Part shown: positions 9,532-21,091 of the stretch, piece by piece
How the letters are laid out: each line of letters starts with the position of its first letter
Position numbering within the stretch: position 1 is the stretch's first letter
Source of the DNA: a virus
DNA: 23,279 nucleotides
Virus record (IMG/VR): IMGVR_UViG_3300006919_000471
Location: 1-23,279 of that record
Strand: one strand, 5' to 3'
The notes under the pieces: generated by a model
The model's database searches: none
The model's input: only the letters and a program-made list of their open reading frames with translations
What the model was told of the DNA's origin: nothing
Position numbers and translations under genes: made by a program

Positions 9532-11825
9532 TATTGTCCTACACTCACTTTATACTCCACACCTAATAAAGTAAAGAAAAGGGGAGCTGATTGACTAAAT
9601 GTTAGTTGACCTTCTCGATCATAACCTAACATTGGTTTTCTTCTTTTCTTTCCTGTAAAAAAAGTTGCTGCTGTAAATGGAAACTCTTTAGCATCTAAAG
9701 TTAAATTTTGTGAAAGGTATAATAATGCTGATGCCTCTACTATTCTTTTCTTTTGTCCTACTGTATTACCACTTGGTAATTTTAATTCTACCGGCATTGT
9801 TTTAACAGTTGGTGTATAATTTAATCCTACTTCAATATAACTTGTTGGTAATGTACTAACTACTATAGCTCCAGAGGCAACTGTAGCATCTGCTGCCATA
9901 GCATCATCAATTATCACTTTAACTGTTTTACCTTCTAAATGAGTTAATCCTGTTATAGATGCACCACTAGGAGTGTTGGCTACACCTCCCATGGCTGCAT
10001 GAGATGAACATTGATAATGTAAAGTAGGAGCTGCACTAGCTACTACGATTTGTGTGTAGGCCCCAGAAGATCCAGGTGTTCCACTTGTAGTTACTCCTGT
10101 TGTGTAAGATGTAGTTTTGTTTGCATCTAAATAAAATCTTAATGGATGGCCAGAGTTAGAATTATCTGATTGATCAAATTTGTAAGTATGACCTTCATAC
10201 AAATTAAGTGTTGCTTGTTGTACTCCATCTATAAAATATTTATTTGATCCAGAAACACTTTGTACAGTAACAGCTTTAGTTATTGTAGATGAGTTTGGTA
10301 ATGTACCAGCAGAGCTAGTTAATAATTTATTGCTGTCAGTAGTATTATCATCATTAAAAGTTTCAATATAATAAACTGTATTAGAGTTTACTGTTCTTTT
10401 AATTACAAAATAAATTGTATCTACATCTACAGAAACTTTTACAAATTCACCATCGGTAGATGATAAAGAAGGAGCTATAACATTTTGGCCTCTCAAGATT
10501 GAATAAGTTGCAAGAGATCCATCATTATTAACAATTAATAACAAATCACCATCATCAGTAGATGTTGCTTTTCTTAATGCTAGATCTGTTGGAGTAACAA
10601 GTAAATGAGAAGATAATAAAGAAATATTATTTGATATGTAAGATAACTCTACATCACTAAATAAAAATTCTCTTAATGATTTACCAGATCTTTGTATAAA
10701 CATTGTACCACTTTCAGCTCCTACAGGCTTGATACCTTCTTTAGATCCTCTTTTAGTTGCACCTTGTATTACAACATTGCCTGGTGTGATTGGATCAAGA
10801 TCTGATTGTGGTAAAAAGAATTCACCACCTTTAGTAAAGATTTGTAAATCTCTACCAGAGAATAATCCTGTAACAGCATTAACCTGGCCTGTGTTTAATG
10901 TAACTTCTATAGCATCATCATCCAAACTTTCACCTGGATTAAAATCAAAAAATCTTCCTACTCTAGATGCAAAGATTGTATTGGGCCTAGATTTAGATCC
11001 ACCAAAATATAATCTTCCTTCATGAAATGTTACTGTTCTAGGATAACCATAAGTAGCACTCCAGGCATCTACATAATCTACTTCAAGTAACCAAGATCCA
11101 CTTGCAATAGCTGAAGTATTAAAAAATGGTATTTCAACAATAGCCTCTACAACAGTACCAGAAACAAATCTTGTTATTCTAGCTCTACCAATTCCATCTG
11201 TTGCCTCAACATAATCATCAACATTACTAGATGCAAAAACAGAAGATCCAGCAGTTAATGTTATATTACCATCTACAGCTGAAGGAGTTAATGTTGCTGA
11301 AGGATTTGATGTAGATAAACTAAATGCATACTTTGGTGTGTACTCAAAACTAATATCTGCAATAGTCCAGGTAGTATGACTAGCTCCTCTTTTAATTTGT
11401 TTAGGGGCTATGTCCTCCTGGACAACAATTAATGTATCGGCTGATTGTGCATAATCAATAGTTGATAAATTAGAAGATCCAATAGTAGTAACAAGATAAT
11501 CATTACCGGTTCCATTAATATTTGTTTGTAAAACTTTATCTTTGTAAATGTACATTCTGTTATGTACAAATAACAACATATAACTTTGTGTAGTTGAAAA
11601 TTCAAAAGGAACTAATCTACATCCATTTTGTGGATTAGCAGCAGAAGGTATTGTTGAAATGTATTGTAGTCCTGGTCTACGAGTAATACCACCTTGTGGC
11701 TGAATAACTACATTACGAGCTTGTTCTAAAGAATTATAATATTGATCAATATCTATTCTAGATTTTAATAAAGGATCTATTTCCCCTGTAGTAAAATTTG
11801 TTTGTATAGATACAGCTCTGCTCAT
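9531..11825 (-). CDS. Tail tubular protein B (tail nozzle, gp12-like) with inserted cupredoxin-like domain
   Basis: A 764-residue protein, close to T7 gp12 (794). The N-terminus (TNFTTGEIDPLLKSRIDIDQ, then NVVIQPQGGITRRPGLQYI) is the signature start of podovirus tail nozzle proteins. It is followed by beta-propeller-like stretches with TVTFHEGRLYFGGSKSRPNT (residues about 265-284), and the C-terminus contains PMLGYDREGQLTFSQ. Residues about 523-615 look like an insertion: KYFIDGVQQATLNLYEGHTY, GHPLRF, YTTGV and HYQCSSHAAMGG. This resembles the cupredoxin-like modules common in marine phage fibres, with potential ligands His560, Cys606, His609 and Met612. The role is to form the tail nozzle through which DNA leaves, together with the gp11-like adaptor encoded just upstream. 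Confidence 0.88.
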   Translation of the reverse strand: MSRAVSIQTNFTTGEIDPLLKSRIDIDQYYNSLEQARNVVIQPQGGITRRPGLQYISTIPSAANPQNGCRLVPFEFSTTQSYMLLFVHNRMYIYKDKVLQTNINGTGNDYLVTTIGSSNLSTIDYAQSADTLIVVQEDIAPKQIKRGASHTTWTIADISFEYTPKYAFSLSTSNPSATLTPSAVDGNITLTAGSSVFASSNVDDYVEATDGIGRARITRFVSGTVVEAIVEIPFFNTSAIASGSWLLEVDYVDAWSATYGYPRTVTFHEGRLYFGGSKSRPNTIFASRVGRFFDFNPGESLDDDAIEVTLNTGQVNAVTGLFSGRDLQIFTKGGEFFLPQSDLDPITPGNVVIQGATKRGSKEGIKPVGAESGTMFIQRSGKSLREFLFSDVELSYISNNISLLSSHLLVTPTDLALRKATSTDDGDLLLIVNNDGSLATYSILRGQNVIAPSLSSTDGEFVKVSVDVDTIYFVIKRTVNSNTVYYIETFNDDNTTDSNKLLTSSAGTLPNSSTITKAVTVQSVSGSNKYFIDGVQQATLNLYEGHTYKFDQSDNSNSGHPLRFYLDANKTTSYTTGVTTSGTPGSSGAYTQIVVASAAPTLHYQCSSHAAMGGVANTPSGASITGLTHLEGKTVKVIIDDAMAADATVASGAIVVSTLPTSYIEVGLNYTPTVKTMPVELKLPSGNTVGQKKRIVEASALLYLSQNLTLDAKEFPFTAATFFTGKKRRKPMLGYDREGQLTFSQSAPLFFTLLGVEYKVSVGQ

Positions 11826-12457
11826 TATCTAACATCTGTTAATGGAAATTCATGGATAGCATAGCTAGGTTTCCCTCTGCCATCAGCATTACTTGCTGAT
11901 CTAAAATATCCACCTCTGCCATTTTCAGATGGTGTACCTAATGCTACAACTTTCCAATAATCTGCTTTTGTTATTTGATCAGTTACCGGTTCAGCTAAAT
12001 GCCAGGCCATCATATAAACAAGTAGTTGTACAAAGTATGAAGGCATCAAACCTTCTGTAATTGCACTTGTAATATAATCAATAAAAATTGTTTCTTCGTT
12101 TGTATAAATAGCTGGGCCAGAAGAAGTGTATTGTAATTCGTAACTTGTTATTGGTACAGCTAAATTTGCTTTTGAATTGTAAACTTGAAATGCTTGACCA
12201 GCTACAGCTGTTGAAGGCAAATCAAATCTATTATCCCACTCACCTATTGGTGATGTTCCAGATTTAGTTAATTGTAATTTTGTTAGAGCAAAACTCCAAG
12301 GGTACATTGATAGAGTTTGTCTTTTAACAGTTTCGTAAATATTATTACATACAGCAGCAGCATCATTAGATGTATCACTAAATGAACTTATTGTATCAGC
12401 TCCCAGCAAATTTAATGCCTGGTTGCAGATTGTTATATTTGTATCACCACTTGCCAT
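11825..12457 (-). CDS. Tail tubular protein A (head-tail adaptor, gp11-like)
   Basis: A 210-residue protein (T7 gp11 has 196). Family features are visible: NQALNLLGADTISSFSDTSN near the start, a helix leading to TVKRQTLSMYPWSFALTKLQ, then FDLPSTAVAGQAFQVYN, and a C-terminal helix SYFVQLLVYMMAWHLAEPVT. This protein forms the 12-subunit ring between portal and tail nozzle. It is encoded directly before the nozzle gene and overlaps it as TAATG. A strong hairpin lies just upstream, in the gap after the small decoration-like gene, so this may be where expression drops from capsid to tail levels. Confidence 0.9.
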   Translation of the reverse strand: MASGDTNITICNQALNLLGADTISSFSDTSNDAAAVCNNIYETVKRQTLSMYPWSFALTKLQLTKSGTSPIGEWDNRFDLPSTAVAGQAFQVYNSKANLAVPITSYELQYTSSGPAIYTNEETIFIDYITSAITEGLMPSYFVQLLVYMMAWHLAEPVTDQITKADYWKVVALGTPSENGRGGYFRSASNADGRGKPSYAIHEFPLTDVR

Positions 12458-12473
12458 ATAAAAATTCCTAATT

Positions 12474-12503
12474 GTAGAAGAGGCCCATAAGGGCCTCCTC
12501 TAT
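12474..12503 (-). terminator. Strong GC hairpin after the capsid/decoration genes
   Basis: GAGGCCC at 12480-12486 and GGGCCTC at 12491-12497 form a perfect 7-base stem with a 4-base loop (ATAA). After one A.C mismatch the helix continues for about five further pairs, out to 12474 and 12503. It starts a few bases after the stop of the 93-aa gene. On the minus strand the following bases are CTTCTACAATTAGG, not a clean uridine run, so it may be a partial terminator, an RNA 3' end protector or a processing site that favours capsid over tail mRNA. Confidence 0.6.
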
Positions 12504-12511
12504 TCTAATTA

Positions 12512-12793
12512 TTAGTCTGCGTCAGCAACTGATAGAGCTGTTCCATCAGATACATCAACTACACCACTCGCATTCGATAACACAGTTACCAAACTTGAAG
12601 TAGGTACAGAACTATCCCAGATATGAATAAGATCACCAACTTTTAAAACATCGGATGCACTATTGAAATATCCAGATGTATTAATGTCAGCTATCGCATC
12701 ATTACCAGGAGCTGTGTAACTCCACATTTGAGGAGCTTGACCAGCTTTACTTTGTCCACCTATCGGTTGTAGGTTTGTTTTATCATAAGCCAT
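12512..12793 (-). CDS. Small head decoration-like protein
   Basis: A 93-residue protein starting MAYDKTNLQPIGGQSKAGQA, followed by APQMWSYTAPGNDAIADINT and GYFNSASDVLKVGDLIHIWD. This type of short beta-rich protein is found next to the capsid gene in many podoviruses and is usually annotated as hypothetical or head decoration. It has a very strong ribosome-binding site (AGAGGAGG, about 9 bases before the ATG), comparable to that of the capsid gene, which predicts high expression. It lies 18 bases after the capsid stop and before the hairpin. The decoration role is inferred from size, position and expected abundance. Confidence 0.78.
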   Translation of the reverse strand: MAYDKTNLQPIGGQSKAGQAPQMWSYTAPGNDAIADINTSGYFNSASDVLKVGDLIHIWDSSVPTSSLVTVLSNASGVVDVSDGTALSVADAD

Positions 12794-12811: not shown

Positions 12812-13663
12812 TTAGCTTTCGTCACAAGTTATTTTAACGATACCTTCATCGTCAATAGATACTGCACCAGCACTAAACATTGAATTAACTAGGAACGAAG
12901 TTTTCTCCGGAACATAGTTGATCTCTGTTTTTTGTGCCATGTTTTCAGCCATACCTATTGCTGATCTGTGGAACGCAAAAATACTTCTGTCGTTTGATGT
13001 TAATGGTAGACCACCTTCATCTCTGTCGCCAAGAACAATAAATTTCATTCCCATGAAAGTATTGATCTCACCAGAAACAAGAGCTTTGATAGATGCAAAG
13101 TCACCACTTACTGCTCTCTCATCACCTAGAAGTCCAGCTAAATTGTTAGCATGAACAGCTATGCAACGATCATCAAATGGAACATTTTTTGCGTCAAGAG
13201 CTTTTTTCGCAGCTATTAACTTTCCAACATTCAAGTTTGATGCAGCAGCAGAACCAGATGTAACAACAGTTTTTGCAACTGTTGATGCACCAGATGCACC
13301 ATTAAGAGCATCTATGACTAATTGGTCTATTCTTCTACCTATTGCTTTTGATACTACTTGAACAAGCTCTGATCTTTCATCAAAATTAACTTTTGCTTGA
13401 TGAAAAATATCGCTGTATTCAGCAGCATTGTAATCTGACATAGTTGCAGTTACCTGGCTGTATGTTACATTTAAAGGAGTAACATCAGTTTGAGGTATTC
13501 TTGCAGTAGCAGATCCCTTACCAAGTTTATTAAACTTGTAAGTTTGCCCTTGTACTCCAGATCTTAATCTAACAGCCTGTCGCAATACACTTTCTGATTG
13601 GTAAGCCTGTTTAACTTCAGCATCAAATAGAGTAACAAAAGCATTTGTTATTGATTGTGCCAT
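12812..13663 (-). CDS. Major capsid protein
   Basis: A 283-residue protein with the order expected of HK97-fold podovirus capsids: an N-terminal helical arm (MAQSITNAFVTLFDAEVKQA), a beta segment with YKFNKLGKGSATARIPQTDV, a long spine-helix region (SELVQVVSKAIGRRIDQLVI), and an A-domain with FDDRCIAVHANNLAGLL, FMGMKFIVLGDRDEGGLPL and FAFHRSAIGMAE. It is shorter than T7 gp10A (345). Codon use is less extreme in A+T than its neighbours, as expected of a very highly expressed gene. An AGGAG site lies about 7 bases before the ATG. The gene follows the scaffold with a 182-base leader that appears to fold. Confidence 0.9.
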   Translation of the reverse strand: MAQSITNAFVTLFDAEVKQAYQSESVLRQAVRLRSGVQGQTYKFNKLGKGSATARIPQTDVTPLNVTYSQVTATMSDYNAAEYSDIFHQAKVNFDERSELVQVVSKAIGRRIDQLVIDALNGASGASTVAKTVVTSGSAAASNLNVGKLIAAKKALDAKNVPFDDRCIAVHANNLAGLLGDERAVSGDFASIKALVSGEINTFMGMKFIVLGDRDEGGLPLTSNDRSIFAFHRSAIGMAENMAQKTEINYVPEKTSFLVNSMFSAGAVSIDDEGIVKITCDES

Positions 13664-13710
13664 ATTCTTTCTCCTATATTACACATTATTGTTACTATTA
13701 TTTTTCAGTT

Positions 13711-13800
13711 GTCGGAATACTTGTCCGGCTGATCTTATGGTGTTGTTGCCCACCAGCCAGAAGGCGAAATGAAATTCGTTATCTTCACTCGCAAAGATAA
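13711..13800 (-). ncRNA. Structured leader RNA upstream of the capsid gene
   Basis: The gap between scaffold and capsid genes holds two nested or adjacent foldings. Stem one pairs 13725-13731 with 13754-13760 (CTGGCTG with CAGCCGG in the minus-strand RNA, one G.U pair) and encloses a smaller GGTG/CACC stem (13739-13742 with 13751-13754, sharing one base with the outer stem). Stem two pairs TTATCTT (13779-13785) with AAGATAA (13794-13800), extended by a U.G pair on the minus strand only. In both stems the imperfect pairs are G.U in the minus-strand RNA but C.A in plus, pointing to minus-strand RNA. The core is richer in G+C than the flanking DNA. It may be a 5' leader, a processing site or an unrecognised RNA motif of the capsid message. 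I recognise no named RNA family. Confidence 0.5.
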
Positions 13801-13845
13801 GCGATTTTATAATAAAAGTAAATAGTTTAAAAAATTATTTATTCA
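13801..13845 (-). promoter_or_regulatory. Possible promoter before the capsid gene
   Basis: Just after the scaffold stop, the minus strand is very A+T-rich and contains TATTATAAAAT, similar to a bacterial -10 element, ahead of the structured leader. No good -35 box at the standard distance is visible. An internal promoter for the most abundant virion protein would make sense here, but the evidence is composition and position only. Confidence 0.25.
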
Positions 13846-14637
13846 TTAAATTTCACCGGTTGATGTAGCAGTACCAGGGAAAGCTCTTGCAAACTGTTCT
13901 TCAACTTTTCTTCTAAATGCTGGATCTGATTTGTATTTAGGATCATTTACTAGGCTATAAAGCTCATCTTTAGATGGTTGACCTTCAATATCAACAGGAG
14001 CTGTAGGTATAGTTTGTTCACCATAATACTTACGAACTTTATTTAAAGCATTAATACCATTGCCTGTAGCTGCAAAGATTTTAAATTCTTCAAAGTCACT
14101 ATCTGACCAAATGCCTTTAGCAACTAAACCCTGGCCCCAAGTAGTAATACCTTTAATAATTTGATCTGCATTAGGCCCTAATATTTTTTTCTCTTCTTCA
14201 ATATTGATACTATCTTCTTCTGCTTGAGCTGTAGATAATTCTTTAAATTTATTTACAAGATTATCAAACGCAGATTGAGTAGGCTTATTTTCTTTTGCCC
14301 AATCTTTAAAATAAGATGCTAATTCATCATCCTCATCTATATCTTCTAAAGCTGACATATCATATTCTTTAGGAGCTTTGTGTTTACCCATAGAAAATTG
14401 TTTTTGTAATTCAGCATATGATTTACTTAAATCTTCTGTTTTAACTCCTTCTTTTTCATCCCAAAATTTATCTTCTATATAATCTGGTTTTTCTAATTTA
14501 GTTTCTTTTTCTTCTTGTGGAGCTACATTTACTTCATCATCTTGTTTATGAGGTATTGTAGTTTCTTCCGGTGATGGTTCTACCGGTTCTGCTGTAGGAG
14601 TATTGCTTAATAAACCTTCTTGATTTTCTTCACTCAT
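13846..14637 (-). CDS. Capsid assembly (scaffolding) protein, gp9-like
   Basis: A 263-residue, strongly acidic protein (T7 gp9 has 307). The first ~60 residues are rich in Glu/Pro/Thr and likely disordered. Then come DYIEDKFWDEKEGVKTEDLS and KSYAELQKQFSMGKHKAP, a segment typical of podovirus scaffolds, and helical regions with many Asp/Glu. The C-terminus (DPAFRRKVEEQFARAFPG) is basic and helical, as needed for binding the capsid protein. It is coupled to the upstream small gene by an ATGA overlap and precedes the capsid gene, the canonical place. Confidence 0.88.
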   Translation of the reverse strand: MSEENQEGLLSNTPTAEPVEPSPEETTIPHKQDDEVNVAPQEEKETKLEKPDYIEDKFWDEKEGVKTEDLSKSYAELQKQFSMGKHKAPKEYDMSALEDIDEDDELASYFKDWAKENKPTQSAFDNLVNKFKELSTAQAEEDSINIEEEKKILGPNADQIIKGITTWGQGLVAKGIWSDSDFEEFKIFAATGNGINALNKVRKYYGEQTIPTAPVDIEGQPSKDELYSLVNDPKYKSDPAFRRKVEEQFARAFPGTATSTGEI

Positions 14638-14900
14638 GATTGTTTTGCCCTTTCTATTCTCATTAATATATCTCGGATTACAGAATTCTGTCCTTCTCTA
14701 GCAAAGCCAAAAGAAGTTTCAGATCCTGGTATCCAGGTTGGTTGATCTAAAGTTTTTTGTTTTAAATGTTCTAAAACCTTTTTACCTTCATCGGTATCAA
14801 AGGTTCTTGCATAAGCCTTATCTAATTCTAATTGATCATCTTTACGATGAACATCTAGAGTATTTAATCCTTCCCATCCTGGAGTATTAATATCTGCCAT
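14634..14900 (-). CDS. Bbp19-like small phage protein
   Basis: An 88-residue protein. The segment DKAYARTFDTDEGKKVLEHL, the Pro/Gly-containing turn, and FAREGQNSVIRDILMRIERA fit the pattern of the Bbp19 family of small proteins found beside portal or scaffold genes in many phages. Their precise role is not established. The gene lies between portal and scaffold, with a TAATG overlap upstream and an ATGA overlap downstream, so it is almost certainly co-expressed with head assembly proteins. Family assignment is from memory of the pattern. Confidence 0.75.
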   Translation of the reverse strand: MADINTPGWEGLNTLDVHRKDDQLELDKAYARTFDTDEGKKVLEHLKQKTLDQPTWIPGSETSFGFAREGQNSVIRDILMRIERAKQS

Positions 14901-16507
14901 TAAGATCTAGCCTCTGCCTCTAAAGCCATCGCTGGTTCTTCTGAAGGAGGAGCTTGATCTTGAGGTTGCTCATTCCCAGGTGTTTGTTGCTGCATCATCA
15001 TCTGTTGTTGCATAGCCATAGCTTGTTGTTGGATCTGTTGCTTTTCTTCTTCATTGTTTCTTAAACTAGCTGGTATGCCAAGTTTATCACCAACGAATGC
15101 AGCAATAGCATCCGGTTTTATTTCAGCCACCCCACCAGGGCCTAACGAGTTTGCAATTTGAAAGAACTGCATAACCTCATTCACTTCTTCTAAATTTTGA
15201 GCTTTAGCAAGAGGTGATATTGGTACAACTTTAACTTCTAATCCATCTATTTTTAGAGGAAGTTGTATCAAACCTTTTTCATCCATAATGAATAATGTTC
15301 TACGAATAATTGGAACCATTGTTTCTGTAATTAATCTTCCGAATGCAGCTCCCATATTTTGAGCTAACTCTTTCATTCTTTCTACAATCTCTGTTGCAGA
15401 TCTAGCTGACATATTATCCGGAGGTAAAGTATCATCTAATAATGTTTTTTTAATATTCATTCTTAAATCATTAATAACAATTTGAGATACATTAAAATCA
15501 CCAGCTCTAGGCAAAGGAGCTAACGATGCACCTTGTGGCCCACCATTACGAGCTACAGGAATAATTGCACCAGGAGTAATTCTAATATTGTTTGGATTTA
15601 AAACTCCATCATCAGCTGCTGTATAAATTCCAGAGATTGCTAATGACGCATTCTTTAATAATAATTCTAAAGTTTTGTTTAATGTTTTAATATCTGGAAT
15701 TGCTGTAGTTAGGGGGCCTCTTCCCATTACCTCACCTGGCACTTTCATATATCTACTTACTATCCATGGTGATTGTTTCATTCTTCTGTAAACCAATTCT
15801 GATTGAGATTTCTCATGGATAACATGATAACAATAATCTTTTTTATCTGGATCTACTACAACAGCCTCACACAATTCTATTTTTTCTTGTGGTTTATCAT
15901 TTATCATTTGTTGTAGTCTTGGATTTATTTGTGCATCTGGAAATTGTCTAGCAATAGTATCAGCTCTAACTCTTAATTTTCTATATACATTGTCTACTGT
16001 ACCATTAGGCCCTTCTTCAATAGCAATTAAATATTGGGGAACAGGAGTAAATGTTACAGGGTTTAGATCATCGCCAGGCTGAATTAACATTGCAGCTGTA
16101 CCAACTGATAGATCTAATAAAAACTCACCAATAGCTAAATCAAAATTACTTTGTCTTAATACAGAAAATAATTTATCTAAATATAAATCAAGAGCTTGTT
16201 GCGTTTCACCTTTTCTTTCATCTGGTATATCATTGCCAGGTTCTAATCTGCACCATTTTTTATATGGAGGAAATAAACCAGATTGAATTCTATTAGCAAA
16301 TCTTTGAACAGAATGAATTGCTGTACTATCAAACACTCTAGACATTTTACTTTGTCCAGGAACATTACCTTCATAATAACCATCATATAAATTTCTTTGA
16401 GGTAAAGCATACTGATAACACTCTTCATAAATAGATCGCCAATTTTCTTTTGCAGCAAATGCTTTTTTATGTCTTGATAAAATTTCTTCTGGTTTTAAAT
16501 ACATCAT
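14900..16507 (-). CDS. Portal (head-tail connector) protein, gp8-like
   Basis: A 535-residue protein, almost the size of T7 gp8 (536). Diagnostic stretches: SRHKKAFAAKENWRSIYEEC, YALPQRNLYDGY, RVFDSTAIHSVQRFANRIQS, GLFPPYKKWCRLEPG, SPWIVSRYMKVPGEVMGRGP, and LLDDTLPPDNMSARSATEIV (residues about 355-376), the conserved portal region. The C-terminal 50 residues are Gln/Met-rich (repeated QQQ and MMMQQQ), which is low-complexity. The portal forms the dodecameric gate for packaging and ejection. An alternative start is the second Met codon, three bases later. The ATG overlaps the upstream stop as ATGA. Confidence 0.93.
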   Translation of the reverse strand: MMYLKPEEILSRHKKAFAAKENWRSIYEECYQYALPQRNLYDGYYEGNVPGQSKMSRVFDSTAIHSVQRFANRIQSGLFPPYKKWCRLEPGNDIPDERKGETQQALDLYLDKLFSVLRQSNFDLAIGEFLLDLSVGTAAMLIQPGDDLNPVTFTPVPQYLIAIEEGPNGTVDNVYRKLRVRADTIARQFPDAQINPRLQQMINDKPQEKIELCEAVVVDPDKKDYCYHVIHEKSQSELVYRRMKQSPWIVSRYMKVPGEVMGRGPLTTAIPDIKTLNKTLELLLKNASLAISGIYTAADDGVLNPNNIRITPGAIIPVARNGGPQGASLAPLPRAGDFNVSQIVINDLRMNIKKTLLDDTLPPDNMSARSATEIVERMKELAQNMGAAFGRLITETMVPIIRRTLFIMDEKGLIQLPLKIDGLEVKVVPISPLAKAQNLEEVNEVMQFFQIANSLGPGGVAEIKPDAIAAFVGDKLGIPASLRNNEEEKQQIQQQAMAMQQQMMMQQQTPGNEQPQDQAPPSEEPAMALEAEARS

Positions 16508-16779: not shown

Positions 16780-16889
16780 TAAAATATTATTGCTCCTAAA
16801 ATAAAAACAACAACATAACTTCCAATTATTTTTTTATTATTTAATCCTTCTTTAATCCAATGCTTTGGTGTTCTTCCATAAATCATCAT
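16779..16889 (-). CDS. 36-aa membrane peptide
   Basis: A tiny gene with ATG at 16889 and TAA at 16781-16779, whose last base is also the first base of the next ATG. The product begins MMIYGRTPKHWIKEGLNNKK and then has one hydrophobic helix (IIGSYVVVFILGAIIF, about 16 residues) reaching the C-terminus. It would sit in the inner membrane with its basic N-terminus inside. Size and location fit a tail-anchored phage peptide. It is short for a holin, and no endolysin is visible nearby, so a lysis role is only one possibility. An alternative start is the second Met. Confidence 0.62.
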   Translation of the reverse strand: MMIYGRTPKHWIKEGLNNKKIIGSYVVVFILGAIIF

Positions 16890-16890
16890 A

Positions 16891-17004
16891 TTAATATACC
16901 AATCCTTTCTTTCTATTTTTTCTACTCATTTTTTTCTTTGCTTGTTTAGCTGCTTTCTTTCCAGCTTTTGTATAAGGATATTTCTTACCAGCTACACTAG
17001 GCAT
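16891..17004 (-). CDS. 37-aa basic peptide with KYPYT motif
   Basis: The tiny product starts MPSVAGKKYPYTKAGKKAAK and ends KKMSRKNRKKGLVY. It is extremely basic and Ala-rich in the middle. The opening GKKYPYT.AGKKAAK pattern recurs in short peptides encoded in many podovirus genomes, as I recall them. Its ATG overlaps the preceding stop (TAATG at 17004). The last residues repeat the C-terminus of the upstream 60-aa protein, from a nearly identical DNA repeat. Possible nucleic-acid or capsid-interior binding, inferred from charge. Confidence 0.68.
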   Translation of the reverse strand: MPSVAGKKYPYTKAGKKAAKQAKKKMSRKNRKKGLVY

Positions 17005-18338: not shown

Positions 18339-18480
18339 TTATTTCTTCTGCTGTTGCTCTGGTTCCTGGTTGATGTAATACAATGCCTTTCCATTTATCA
18401 TCTTCAACTTCTACAATCTTCTCTTCTAAAAGTCTAACATCACCCTTTTCCCAAACTTTAATTAAATATTTTTTTATCAT
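18286..18480 (-). CDS. 64-aa acidic hypothetical protein
   Basis: A 64-residue protein starting MIKKYLIKVWEKGDVRLLEE. The first half looks like a small beta sheet (YLIKVWEKG, KIVEVEDDKWKGIVLHQPGT). The second half is Thr/Glu/Asp-rich and likely disordered. Its ATG overlaps the large terminase stop as ATGA, so it is translationally coupled to packaging. Its 3' end overlaps the GNAT-like gene. No family recognised. Confidence 0.62.
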   Translation of the reverse strand: MIKKYLIKVWEKGDVRLLEEKIVEVEDDKWKGIVLHQPGTRATAEEINEPTETRTDLQDPRNKD

Positions 18481-19994
18481 GCAAATATATCAAAATCTGC
18501 ACTAGCTACTGATGCTGTAAAGTTTTTATTACCACCTCTTGTTAATCTTTTATGTTCACCACCACCTAATAATAAATACATAAAAGCATCACCGACATGG
18601 GAATGCTCATTCTTATTTGGTTGATCTTTATATCTCTCACCACCAGAGATCTGAACTCTTTTAAAATGATAGCCACCAGATAATGCTTTTCTTAATCGCT
18701 TACATCTTTTATCAACTAACAATCCAGGCTTACCTTGGATTAACCTATTCATTGGAGCTGCACCAGCCTCTCTACGAACTCTAAAATCATTCGTAGCTGT
18801 GGGCCTAGCAACTAATCCTATTGTTCTTAAATGATCAAATGCTGTAACTTCAAAGATCTCATCTCTCTTCTGTCCAGCTGGATCACCCCAAACTAATACA
18901 TCATACTTTGGAAATCTTGTTTCTAATTCACCTTTCAACATATAACCAAATCTTTCCAGGCCCATATCAAATGTTACAAGCTCATGGAGTATTCGCCATT
19001 GTCCATTAGGTAACTTCTGACCAAAGATAGCAGCTGGAGTTAAACCAAAGTCAACACCTACCTGGATAGGGTATTGAATATCTGGTTCCAGGAATTCTTC
19101 TGTCATTAATGTGTCATCGTATTCGGACATAACAGGCTTACCCTCTTGCACATAAGTGTACTTTCCTTGGGCATAACATCTAATCCAATCAATATTTTTG
19201 CCGAGTAAAGTCTGTTCGTAATATCCGGCTGTTAAATTTTTTTGATTTTCTGCTGTAGGGTTTTGCATCCACCATTTGTTTGCAGAATAAACAAAGCCAT
19301 TAGCCTCTGGATTTTCTGGTAGCTCATTTTGGATAACTTCTTCAACAGCTCCTGGCTGCTTAAAAAATTTCCAAGCAAACTTGCCTTTCATCTTTTCTTT
19401 TTCTGCAAGTCTGTACCACCAATGATCATCATCCATTGGGTTAGTATCCATAATAATAAATCTATTAGTAGATCCACCATCAGCTTTAGTAGGGTATCTT
19501 CCAACTCTGTGTGTTAATCCATCTATAACAGCTTTAGGCAGCTCTCTAGCCTCATTAACCCAAGCTCCTGTCAATTCCATTGATAATAACTTTCTAACAT
19601 CTTTAGGTTGATCAAGGGCCAGGAAGATAACTTCACAATCAATACCTGGAGCATTATCTCTTGCCGGTAATTTTATATGATGTGTTAATGGAGGTGACCA
19701 TCTGAATGCACCCCAAATGTTCTCTGGAAATAACTCTTGCCATGTTTTAATAGTAGTTGTCCTCAACTCCGGATAAGAATTACGCACTACTACAAACCTA
19801 GAATACTTGATCCCATCACGAGGACTTTGTACTTGATTAACAGCTTTGATCATAATCTCTGCTGCACAAGCATAAGACTTACCAGAACCCACCGGCCCCA
19901 TTAATCCTCTTACAAAACTTTTATCATTTAAAAATTTCCAAACTGTAGGTGATGTACTAAAGTCTAGATTTAGATTTGCTATTGCATTACTCAT
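18477..19994 (-). CDS. terL: Terminase large subunit
   Basis: A 505-residue packaging motor ATPase and nuclease. Walker A is GPVGSGKS at residues 33-40. A Walker B-type strand with the catalytic acid reads GAWVNEAREL at 143-152, with Glu148 the likely catalytic base. The coupling motif DTNP is at 183-186. The RNase H-like nuclease domain shows VGVDFG (Asp315), VWGDPAG (Asp371) and HVGDAFMY (Asp469), the expected three acidic residues. All key residues are present, so both activities are probably intact. It translocates genome into the prohead through the portal and cuts it. The ATG lies inside the end of the preceding small gene, suggesting coupling. Confidence 0.95.
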   Translation of the reverse strand: MSNAIANLNLDFSTSPTVWKFLNDKSFVRGLMGPVGSGKSYACAAEIMIKAVNQVQSPRDGIKYSRFVVVRNSYPELRTTTIKTWQELFPENIWGAFRWSPPLTHHIKLPARDNAPGIDCEVIFLALDQPKDVRKLLSMELTGAWVNEARELPKAVIDGLTHRVGRYPTKADGGSTNRFIIMDTNPMDDDHWWYRLAEKEKMKGKFAWKFFKQPGAVEEVIQNELPENPEANGFVYSANKWWMQNPTAENQKNLTAGYYEQTLLGKNIDWIRCYAQGKYTYVQEGKPVMSEYDDTLMTEEFLEPDIQYPIQVGVDFGLTPAAIFGQKLPNGQWRILHELVTFDMGLERFGYMLKGELETRFPKYDVLVWGDPAGQKRDEIFEVTAFDHLRTIGLVARPTATNDFRVRREAGAAPMNRLIQGKPGLLVDKRCKRLRKALSGGYHFKRVQISGGERYKDQPNKNEHSHVGDAFMYLLLGGGEHKRLTRGGNKNFTASVASADFDIFA

Positions 19995-20897: not shown

Positions 20898-20950
20898 ATA
20901 TTTCCTCACTTGTTTGTTTCATGTTTTATTTGTAAAAAAATTGTGTGATA

Positions 20951-20990
20951 CCCCCCTATAGATATACGCACCCAGGGGGCCAAGGGGTGT
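20951..20990. other. G/C-run island in the pre-terminase gap
   Basis: Within the 194-base gap between the replication genes and the pre-terminase gene there is a run of six C (20951-20956), five G (20975-20979) and four G (20984-20987), with TATAGATATA between. The C-run and first G-run can pair as a five-base stem. This is unlike the A+T-rich surroundings. Such an island beside terminase genes could be a packaging (cos or pac) site, a replication origin element or a regulatory RNA fold. Nothing here decides among them. Confidence 0.45.
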
Positions 20991-20994
20991 CCAA

Positions 20995-21031
20995 CTTTTT
21001 ATAAAATAAAAAGCCAGGTTTTCTGCCCCTG
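20995..21031 (-). terminator. Possible weak terminator after the replication genes
   Basis: On the minus strand CAGG (21031-21028) and CCTG (21018-21015) form a short stem with a nine-base loop, followed within two bases by CTTTTTATTTTAT. The T-tract itself is one arm of a perfect eight-base inverted repeat (20995-21002 with 21006-21013). The arrangement fits a weak intrinsic terminator for the genes reading in from the right. Stem strength is low. Confidence 0.35.
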
Positions 21032-21091
21032 TATTTCTCAATCTTCTTACAATACAAAACATATACGAACCTTTACGATTTGTAAAATCTA

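Follow-up and report, generated by a model that had tools for sequence, protein, structure and literature searches.

The leader of the major capsid gene in a marine podophage fragment carries a compact element of three stems, P1, P3 and P4, at 13706-13786 on the minus strand which, judged by the base exchanges among its relatives, is an RNA structure conserved by selection. The window analysed here is the whole virus record of 23,279 bases. P1 and P4 contain the same asymmetric internal loop in mirrored orientation, and this twin loop recurs in the capsid leaders of otherwise dissimilar phages. From its predicted position and from the analogy to T7 gene 10, the most likely function of the element is that of a 5′-end cap stabilising the capsid mRNA, a tentative reading to which we give a probability of roughly 0.45.

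Three conserved stems in the capsid leader

The nearest isolate to the window is the OM43 phage MEP301, with a capsid identity of 63%. The genes and RNA features around the capsid unit are collected in Table 1. A first-pass annotation of the DNA had pointed to a long, 182-nt leader with a G+C-rich core and a conserved-looking fold, possibly belonging to an undescribed RNA family. The length is exact, since the leader occupies 13664-13845 between the stop codon of the scaffold-type gene at 13846 and the capsid start at 13663. Its core has a GC content of 0.45 (13702-13797) and is both kept and covarying among relatives. The boundaries first proposed, 13711-13800, have to be moved to those of the conserved structure. 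Two more long intergenic gaps, at 16780-17003 and 20910-21091, occur in this compact genome.

Table 1. Features of the capsid region and neighbouring genes
Feature	Position	Strand	Basis
Large terminase gene	18477-19994	minus	family match
Portal gene	14900-16507	minus	family match
Head-assembly/protease-like (scaffold-type) gene	13846-14637	minus	family match; stop at 13846
Putative sigma70-type promoter: -35 TTTACT (13822-13817), 17 nt, -10 TATCTT (13799-13794)	13794-13822	minus	homology
Predicted 5′ untranslated region of capsid mRNA, start ~13786	13664-13786	minus	promoter spacing
Stem P1: GAAG [AUAA] CGAA..UUCG [C] CUUC	13760-13786	minus	exchanges in relatives
Hairpin P3: UGGUG..CACCA	13738-13755	minus	4 of 5 pairs changed on both sides in relatives
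Stem P4: CAG [C] CGGA..UCCG [ACAA] CUG	13706-13731	minus	inner helix covaries (GC/UA/AU)
Shine-Dalgarno AGGAG of capsid gene, outside the folded element	13671-13675	minus	sequence
Major capsid protein gene	12812-13663	minus	phrog_3437 major head protein, E 2.6e-61
Small gene, 93 aa, between capsid gene and 3′ hairpin	12512-12793	minus	phrog_18004, E 1e-21
3′ hairpin GAGGAGGCCC UUAU GGGCCUCUUC, ahead of tail tubular protein A gene	12477-12500	minus	sequence
Tail protein gene (tail tubular protein A in MEP301)	11825-12457	minus	family match and MEP301 gene order

The annotation was right in taking the leader for a real RNA, and wrong in its grounds, namely particular stems with imperfect pairs that are G.U on the minus strand only. 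The conserved helices of the window are Watson-Crick throughout, and the plus strand folds equally well (-27.4 versus -25.4 kcal/mol), so that an asymmetry of G.U pairs cannot tell which strand acts. One of the stems then predicted (UUAUCUUU..GAAGAUAA, ~13774-13804) uses the -10 hexamer as its 5′ arm; it therefore straddles the predicted start site and is not part of the conserved RNA. Folding energy was rejected as proof of an RNA element, being weak and strand-symmetric: the core has a z of -1.85, with 11 of 200 shuffles equally good, and the whole leader a z of -2.35.

The case for selection is made by the relatives, which were gathered via capsid homologues and DNA patterns and yielded no fewer than 33 different leader cores. 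In a MAFFT alignment of 27 sequences, 95.5% of the cells in P1, P3 and P4 were paired, and eight pairs (37 cells) were changed on both sides, which at most 1 of 500 shuffles equalled. Sliding the partners by one to three columns reduced pairing to 28-45%, and to 27-45% over the analysis as a whole. RNAalifold called only P1 and inner P4 on this alignment; P3 and outer P4 were found by inspection and counted afterwards. When 33 sequences were fitted to the model, an alignment hence biased towards the structure, 98.6% of cells were paired and nine pairs were changed on both sides. The covariance check proposed at the outset thus bore out an RNA element, with both-sided changes in 9 of 19 pairs and in 0 of 500 shuffles. 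Exchanges in P1 comprise A-U/C-G, C-G/U-A/G-C and G-C/A-U, and the outer P4 helix CAG/CUG is invariant in the window class, its counterpart in a second class of leaders (class B, below) covarying. Tested over all column pairs against a tree simulation, the top two were structural pairs, 36-52 in P3 and 68-82 in P4, each with an E of about 0.1. Because the alignment is small, single pairs reach no better value than this and their covariation is suggestive rather than conclusive; the case therefore rests on the structure as a whole and on the other leader classes.

The window holds one copy of the element (13702-13797, E 5e-18), and no further copies were found elsewhere in it. All 13 contigs that were searched whole had one strong copy each, one of them with two additional weak matches (E 0.035), and every strong match checked for gene content lay 5′ of the same capsid gene. 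Two alternative helices between P1 and P4 were discarded: GGCU/AGCC has uncompensated breaks in 6-7 of 29 sequences, and UGGC/GUCA is without two-sided changes. The lowest-energy fold of the window core is an extended form with GGCU/AGCC (-18.0 kcal/mol versus -14.1 kcal/mol for the conserved structure), and on these modelled energies switching between the two is conceivable. Downstream of the stems, at 13664-13705, a TGTGTTAA-like stretch just 5′ of the Shine-Dalgarno sequence is kept in most of the window class and is not accounted for by the fold. Two sub-clades (L022 and L035) have additional sequence between P4 and the ribosome site, which in L035 includes an additional hairpin, CATCTCC..GGGGATG.

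Predicted promoter and 3′ hairpin of the capsid unit

A sigma70-type promoter is predicted directly upstream of P1. The top promoter match ended 5-7 nt 5′ of P1 in 11 of 15 class A representatives (shuffles: mean 1.3, maximum 5) and in 29 of 37 class B leaders (mean 3.3, maximum 9). In the window itself a simple promoter score slightly favours another site, TAAAAT, 17 nt before P1, and the assignment there therefore rests on homology. With the usual spacing, the capsid transcript is predicted to start at the first base pair of P1. The conserved predicted promoter would thus place the element at the very start of the capsid message, to which the first-pass annotation had assigned it. On the predicted start site, the stem lies within a few nucleotides of the start, the arrangement looked for in a 5′-terminal mRNA stabiliser.

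The -10 hexamer and the first transcript bases of the window class (13774-13804) form an inverted repeat (mean arm 5.0 versus 3.7 in shuffles), which may be an operator or may simply follow from TATCTT and AAGATA. Class B has no inverted repeat over the -10 hexamer. In many class B phages (among L195-L274, e.g. L260) the capsid promoter is preceded by a terminator-like hairpin and its T run, and the class B capsid unit may be insulated at both ends.

All 39 relatives tested have a strong hairpin between the second gene of the unit and the tail gene, close to the latter, with energies from -16 to -29.5 kcal/mol. As most of the U-tracts are short, this hairpin may terminate transcription leakily or protect the 3′ side. 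The leader of the window gave no terminator, and the ribosome-binding region of the relatives, with a mean unpaired probability of about 0.45-0.49, is not strongly sequestered. Nothing therefore points to an on/off switch. A search for single-subunit (T7-type) RNA polymerase with PF00940, which recovered the T7 polymerase at 1e-110, gave no match in 15 records of this podophage group, most of them whole genomes.

A twin internal loop in dissimilar leaders

In the window class, the sequence AYAA faces a C in an asymmetric (4x1) internal loop in both P1 and P4. The long strand is 5′ in P1, the first copy, and 3′ in P4, the mirrored second copy. Capsid relatives from the MEP301 group (80 loci) have a different, larger leader at the same place, termed class B, which also contains P1 and P4. 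Its 53 distinct sequences show many paired exchanges in the two stems. A lone C again lies opposite a four-base loop in both, the loop reading C..A with few exceptions and the facing base being C with none; P1 and P4 were bounded here by structure-based parsing, so that percentages and the facing C are biased towards the structure, but the range of pair types found in the helices does not depend on it.

Mirrored twin loops were also found in the capsid leaders of the Vibrio phages CKB-S2, VP2, K300 and 1.182.O. Two copies of the loop, the mirroring being inconstant, are present in Yersinia phage YeP5, Alteromonas phage ZP6, Pelagibacter phage Baldr and environmental genomes. Run over 21 leaders, a descriptor kept fixed gave 20 hits; nine leaders were hit twice, and six of the pairs were mirrored. 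Some of the phages are mutually related, and the counts are therefore partly non-independent. Dinucleotide shuffles of these leaders gave means of 0.73, 0.017 and 0.01 and never attained the observed values, and in background sequence two hits occurred in 2 of 1060 chunks. As the loop pattern had been picked after viewing the 21 leaders, it was retested on eight previously unseen ones, which yielded six hits and two mirrored pairs, compared with 0.6 and 0.017 for shuffles (0/2000). The motif was absent from HTVC010P, Greip, Skadi-4, HTVC034P and HTVC203P, pelagiphages with related capsids.

The strongest point for the motif is a link that the descriptor leaves unspecified, between the first base of the loop and the base facing it. 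The combinations were A.C in 15 cases, G.U in 10, G.C in one and A.U in none (Fisher P = 2e-6). The link persists at one vote per phage (9e-4) and is missing from background hits. The window class shows the same exchange, with GCAA facing U in two relatives (L035 and L045). Since an A.C wobble is shaped like a G.U wobble, the exchange looks like the trace of a conserved three-dimensional motif.

Some database matches need separate mention. A BLAST match of the CKB-S2 leader to a Stenotrophomonas phage lies inside a coding gene and was set aside as chance. Two capsid relatives within bacterial assemblies (L358 and L359), from Hyphomicrobiales and Polaribacter MAGs, are probably contigs of phages that were binned together with the bacteria, and the leader of L359 has the mirrored twin motif. 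Three further loci (L275, 6376-6600 on the minus strand, L302 and L307) encode a different, T7/cyanophage-like capsid protein of 373 aa behind a long structured leader containing CAG[C]CCGG..CCGG[AUAA]CUG. They were left uncounted because a pattern search of this size expects chance hits, and theirs may be one. In the same leader a 12-nt stretch, AGATTGCTCCTC, is wholly complementary to the Shine-Dalgarno region of the capsid gene, and such sequestering of the ribosome site resembles a regulatory switch.

Possible roles of the element and relation to known systems

The predicted placement of the element argues for protection and promotion of the capsid message. Host RNA polymerase would initiate at the promoter, with the first transcribed base already inside P1, and the dedicated capsid transcript would fold into P1, P3 and P4. 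The matching internal loops of P1 and P4, each a wobble pair beside a three-base bulge, would probably dock or build a joint compact unit. Without a single-stranded 5′ end the transcript would avoid 5′-end-dependent decay, the fold being held apart from the A/U-rich ribosome site downstream, and the strong hairpin after the next gene would end the message or protect its 3′ side. The outcome would be an abundant, long-lived capsid message, as T7 gets from its gene 10 leader and Tphi. Such a shielded message would let a phage without its own RNA polymerase produce enough shell protein. In this scheme we infer the start site, the tertiary contact and the effect on stability.

The order of promoter, leader, capsid gene, hairpin and tail gene is the layout found around T7 gene 10, where the annotated phi10 is followed by a 63-nt leader opening with a hairpin, gene 10, the annotated Tphi and gene 11. 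Both systems have a major capsid leader with a stem at +1 (predicted here), an A/U-rich ribosome site after the stem, and a hairpin between the capsid unit and the tail tubular A gene. Other genes to which the T7 gene 10 stem-loop was added gained 1.5-3-fold in mRNA abundance and expression (PMC6146998). T7, however, relies on a polymerase of its own and has a single plain 8-bp hairpin, whereas the window element has a host-type promoter, three stems and the conserved twin internal loop. The descriptor found no twin motif in the T7 gene 10 leader.

Several observations weigh against a stabiliser. The leaders fold with unremarkable energies (mean z -0.87 and -0.25), a simple hairpin suffices to protect a 5′ end, the start site is a predicted one and the pelagiphages with related capsids appear to do without the motif. 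The strict conservation of the loop sequences calls for more, a binding partner or a tertiary contact, and the mirrored copies suggest that the loops either dock with each other or hold a dimeric protein. The main rival reading, which we consider unlikely, takes the twin motif as the binding site of a protein, dimeric or repeated, through which capsid translation or the fate of the mRNA is controlled; this would be either a host RNA-binding protein or an autoregulating phage head protein. A doubled and mirrored loop with near-invariant bases would suit such a site, as would the exchange of A.C for G.U, which preserves geometry while the stems vary freely. No partner is known, however, hosts and capsids vary widely, and the window element stops ~30 nt before the Shine-Dalgarno sequence, which it leaves uncovered. 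Stabilisation of the mRNA and binding of a protein are mutually compatible. A broader proposal, somewhat unlikely in our view, is that of a new and widespread class of phage RNAs defined by the twin mirrored loop, wobble plus three-base bulge. In many podophage lineages this loop would label the capsid message and bring in a shared host factor, raising the late output of capsid protein. Candidates for this factor are a ribonuclease shield, a dimeric RNA-binding protein or RNA polymerase.

Quite improbable is a nascent-RNA antiterminator which, like HK022 put, would load onto host RNA polymerase and let late transcription pass terminators. The element begins at about +1 of a sigma70-type promoter (predicted start), has internal-loop stems within about 80 nt and belongs to phages without their own RNA polymerase; HK022 putL likewise lies just 3′ of its promoter and has two stems (PMC9378689). 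The put RNAs are structured, measure ~70-80 nt and have two stems that bear loops (PMC9378689); they open a phage transcript made by host polymerase, a position that the window element would share on its predicted start, but they serve the early genes of a temperate phage, pair differently and involve an RNA triplex. The twin motif is missing from putL and putR: in putL the descriptor gave a single weak hit, at odds with the pairing in the cryo-EM structure (PMC9378689), and in putR none. Moreover, a terminator-like hairpin stands only two genes on in all relatives tested, and a strong antiterminator would defeat it. The predicted position would fit, but neither the structure nor this hairpin does, and membership in the put family was rejected.

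That the leader is excised, or works in trans as a small RNA (in assembly or packaging, for instance), we hold to be very improbable. It is compact, conserved and present as a single strong copy per genome, but always in cis, 5′ of the capsid gene, and no terminator or processing site was seen. A riboswitch with two similar aptamers would account for one motif in two copies with strongly conserved loops; it has hardly any likelihood, given an unusual target in the capsid gene and the lack of a visible expression platform, the leader of the window being without terminator and the ribosome site of the relatives not strongly sequestered. Finally, a DNA constraint on the promoter region without RNA function, suggested by the inverted repeat overlapping the -10 region in several relatives, is scarcely credible, as P3 and P4 change in a compensatory way 30-80 nt into the predicted transcript and the twin motif recurs among otherwise dissimilar leaders.

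Structured leaders of phage genes are a known kind of RNA; the present one and the twin motif within it both seem new. The manA and wcaG RNAs of Rfam are likewise structured 5′-UTR RNAs of marine phages (PMC2864571), but they occur in T4-like cyanophages before metabolic genes, and the window element has no Rfam match. In Rfam 15 the window gave nothing at the gathering threshold, the best weak match having an E of 0.14, in agreement with the earlier suggestion of an undescribed family. Class B, three further relatives (L022, L049 and L061) and the distant isolates gave either nothing or weak sRNA matches upstream of the element. Paper searches, mostly outside the subscription literature, returned no description of this RNA, and an earlier one is possible.

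The hosts of the phages that carry this Rfam-absent RNA include Vibrio, Yersinia, Alteromonas, OM43 and Pelagibacter. Since some carriers are cultured (VP2, CKB-S2, ZP6 and MEP301), its function is testable. The element may also be of use as an expression leader for host-polymerase transcripts. Above all, a conserved leader with a testable motif provides a handle on how podophages in which no RNA polymerase of their own was found synthesise capsid protein in excess.
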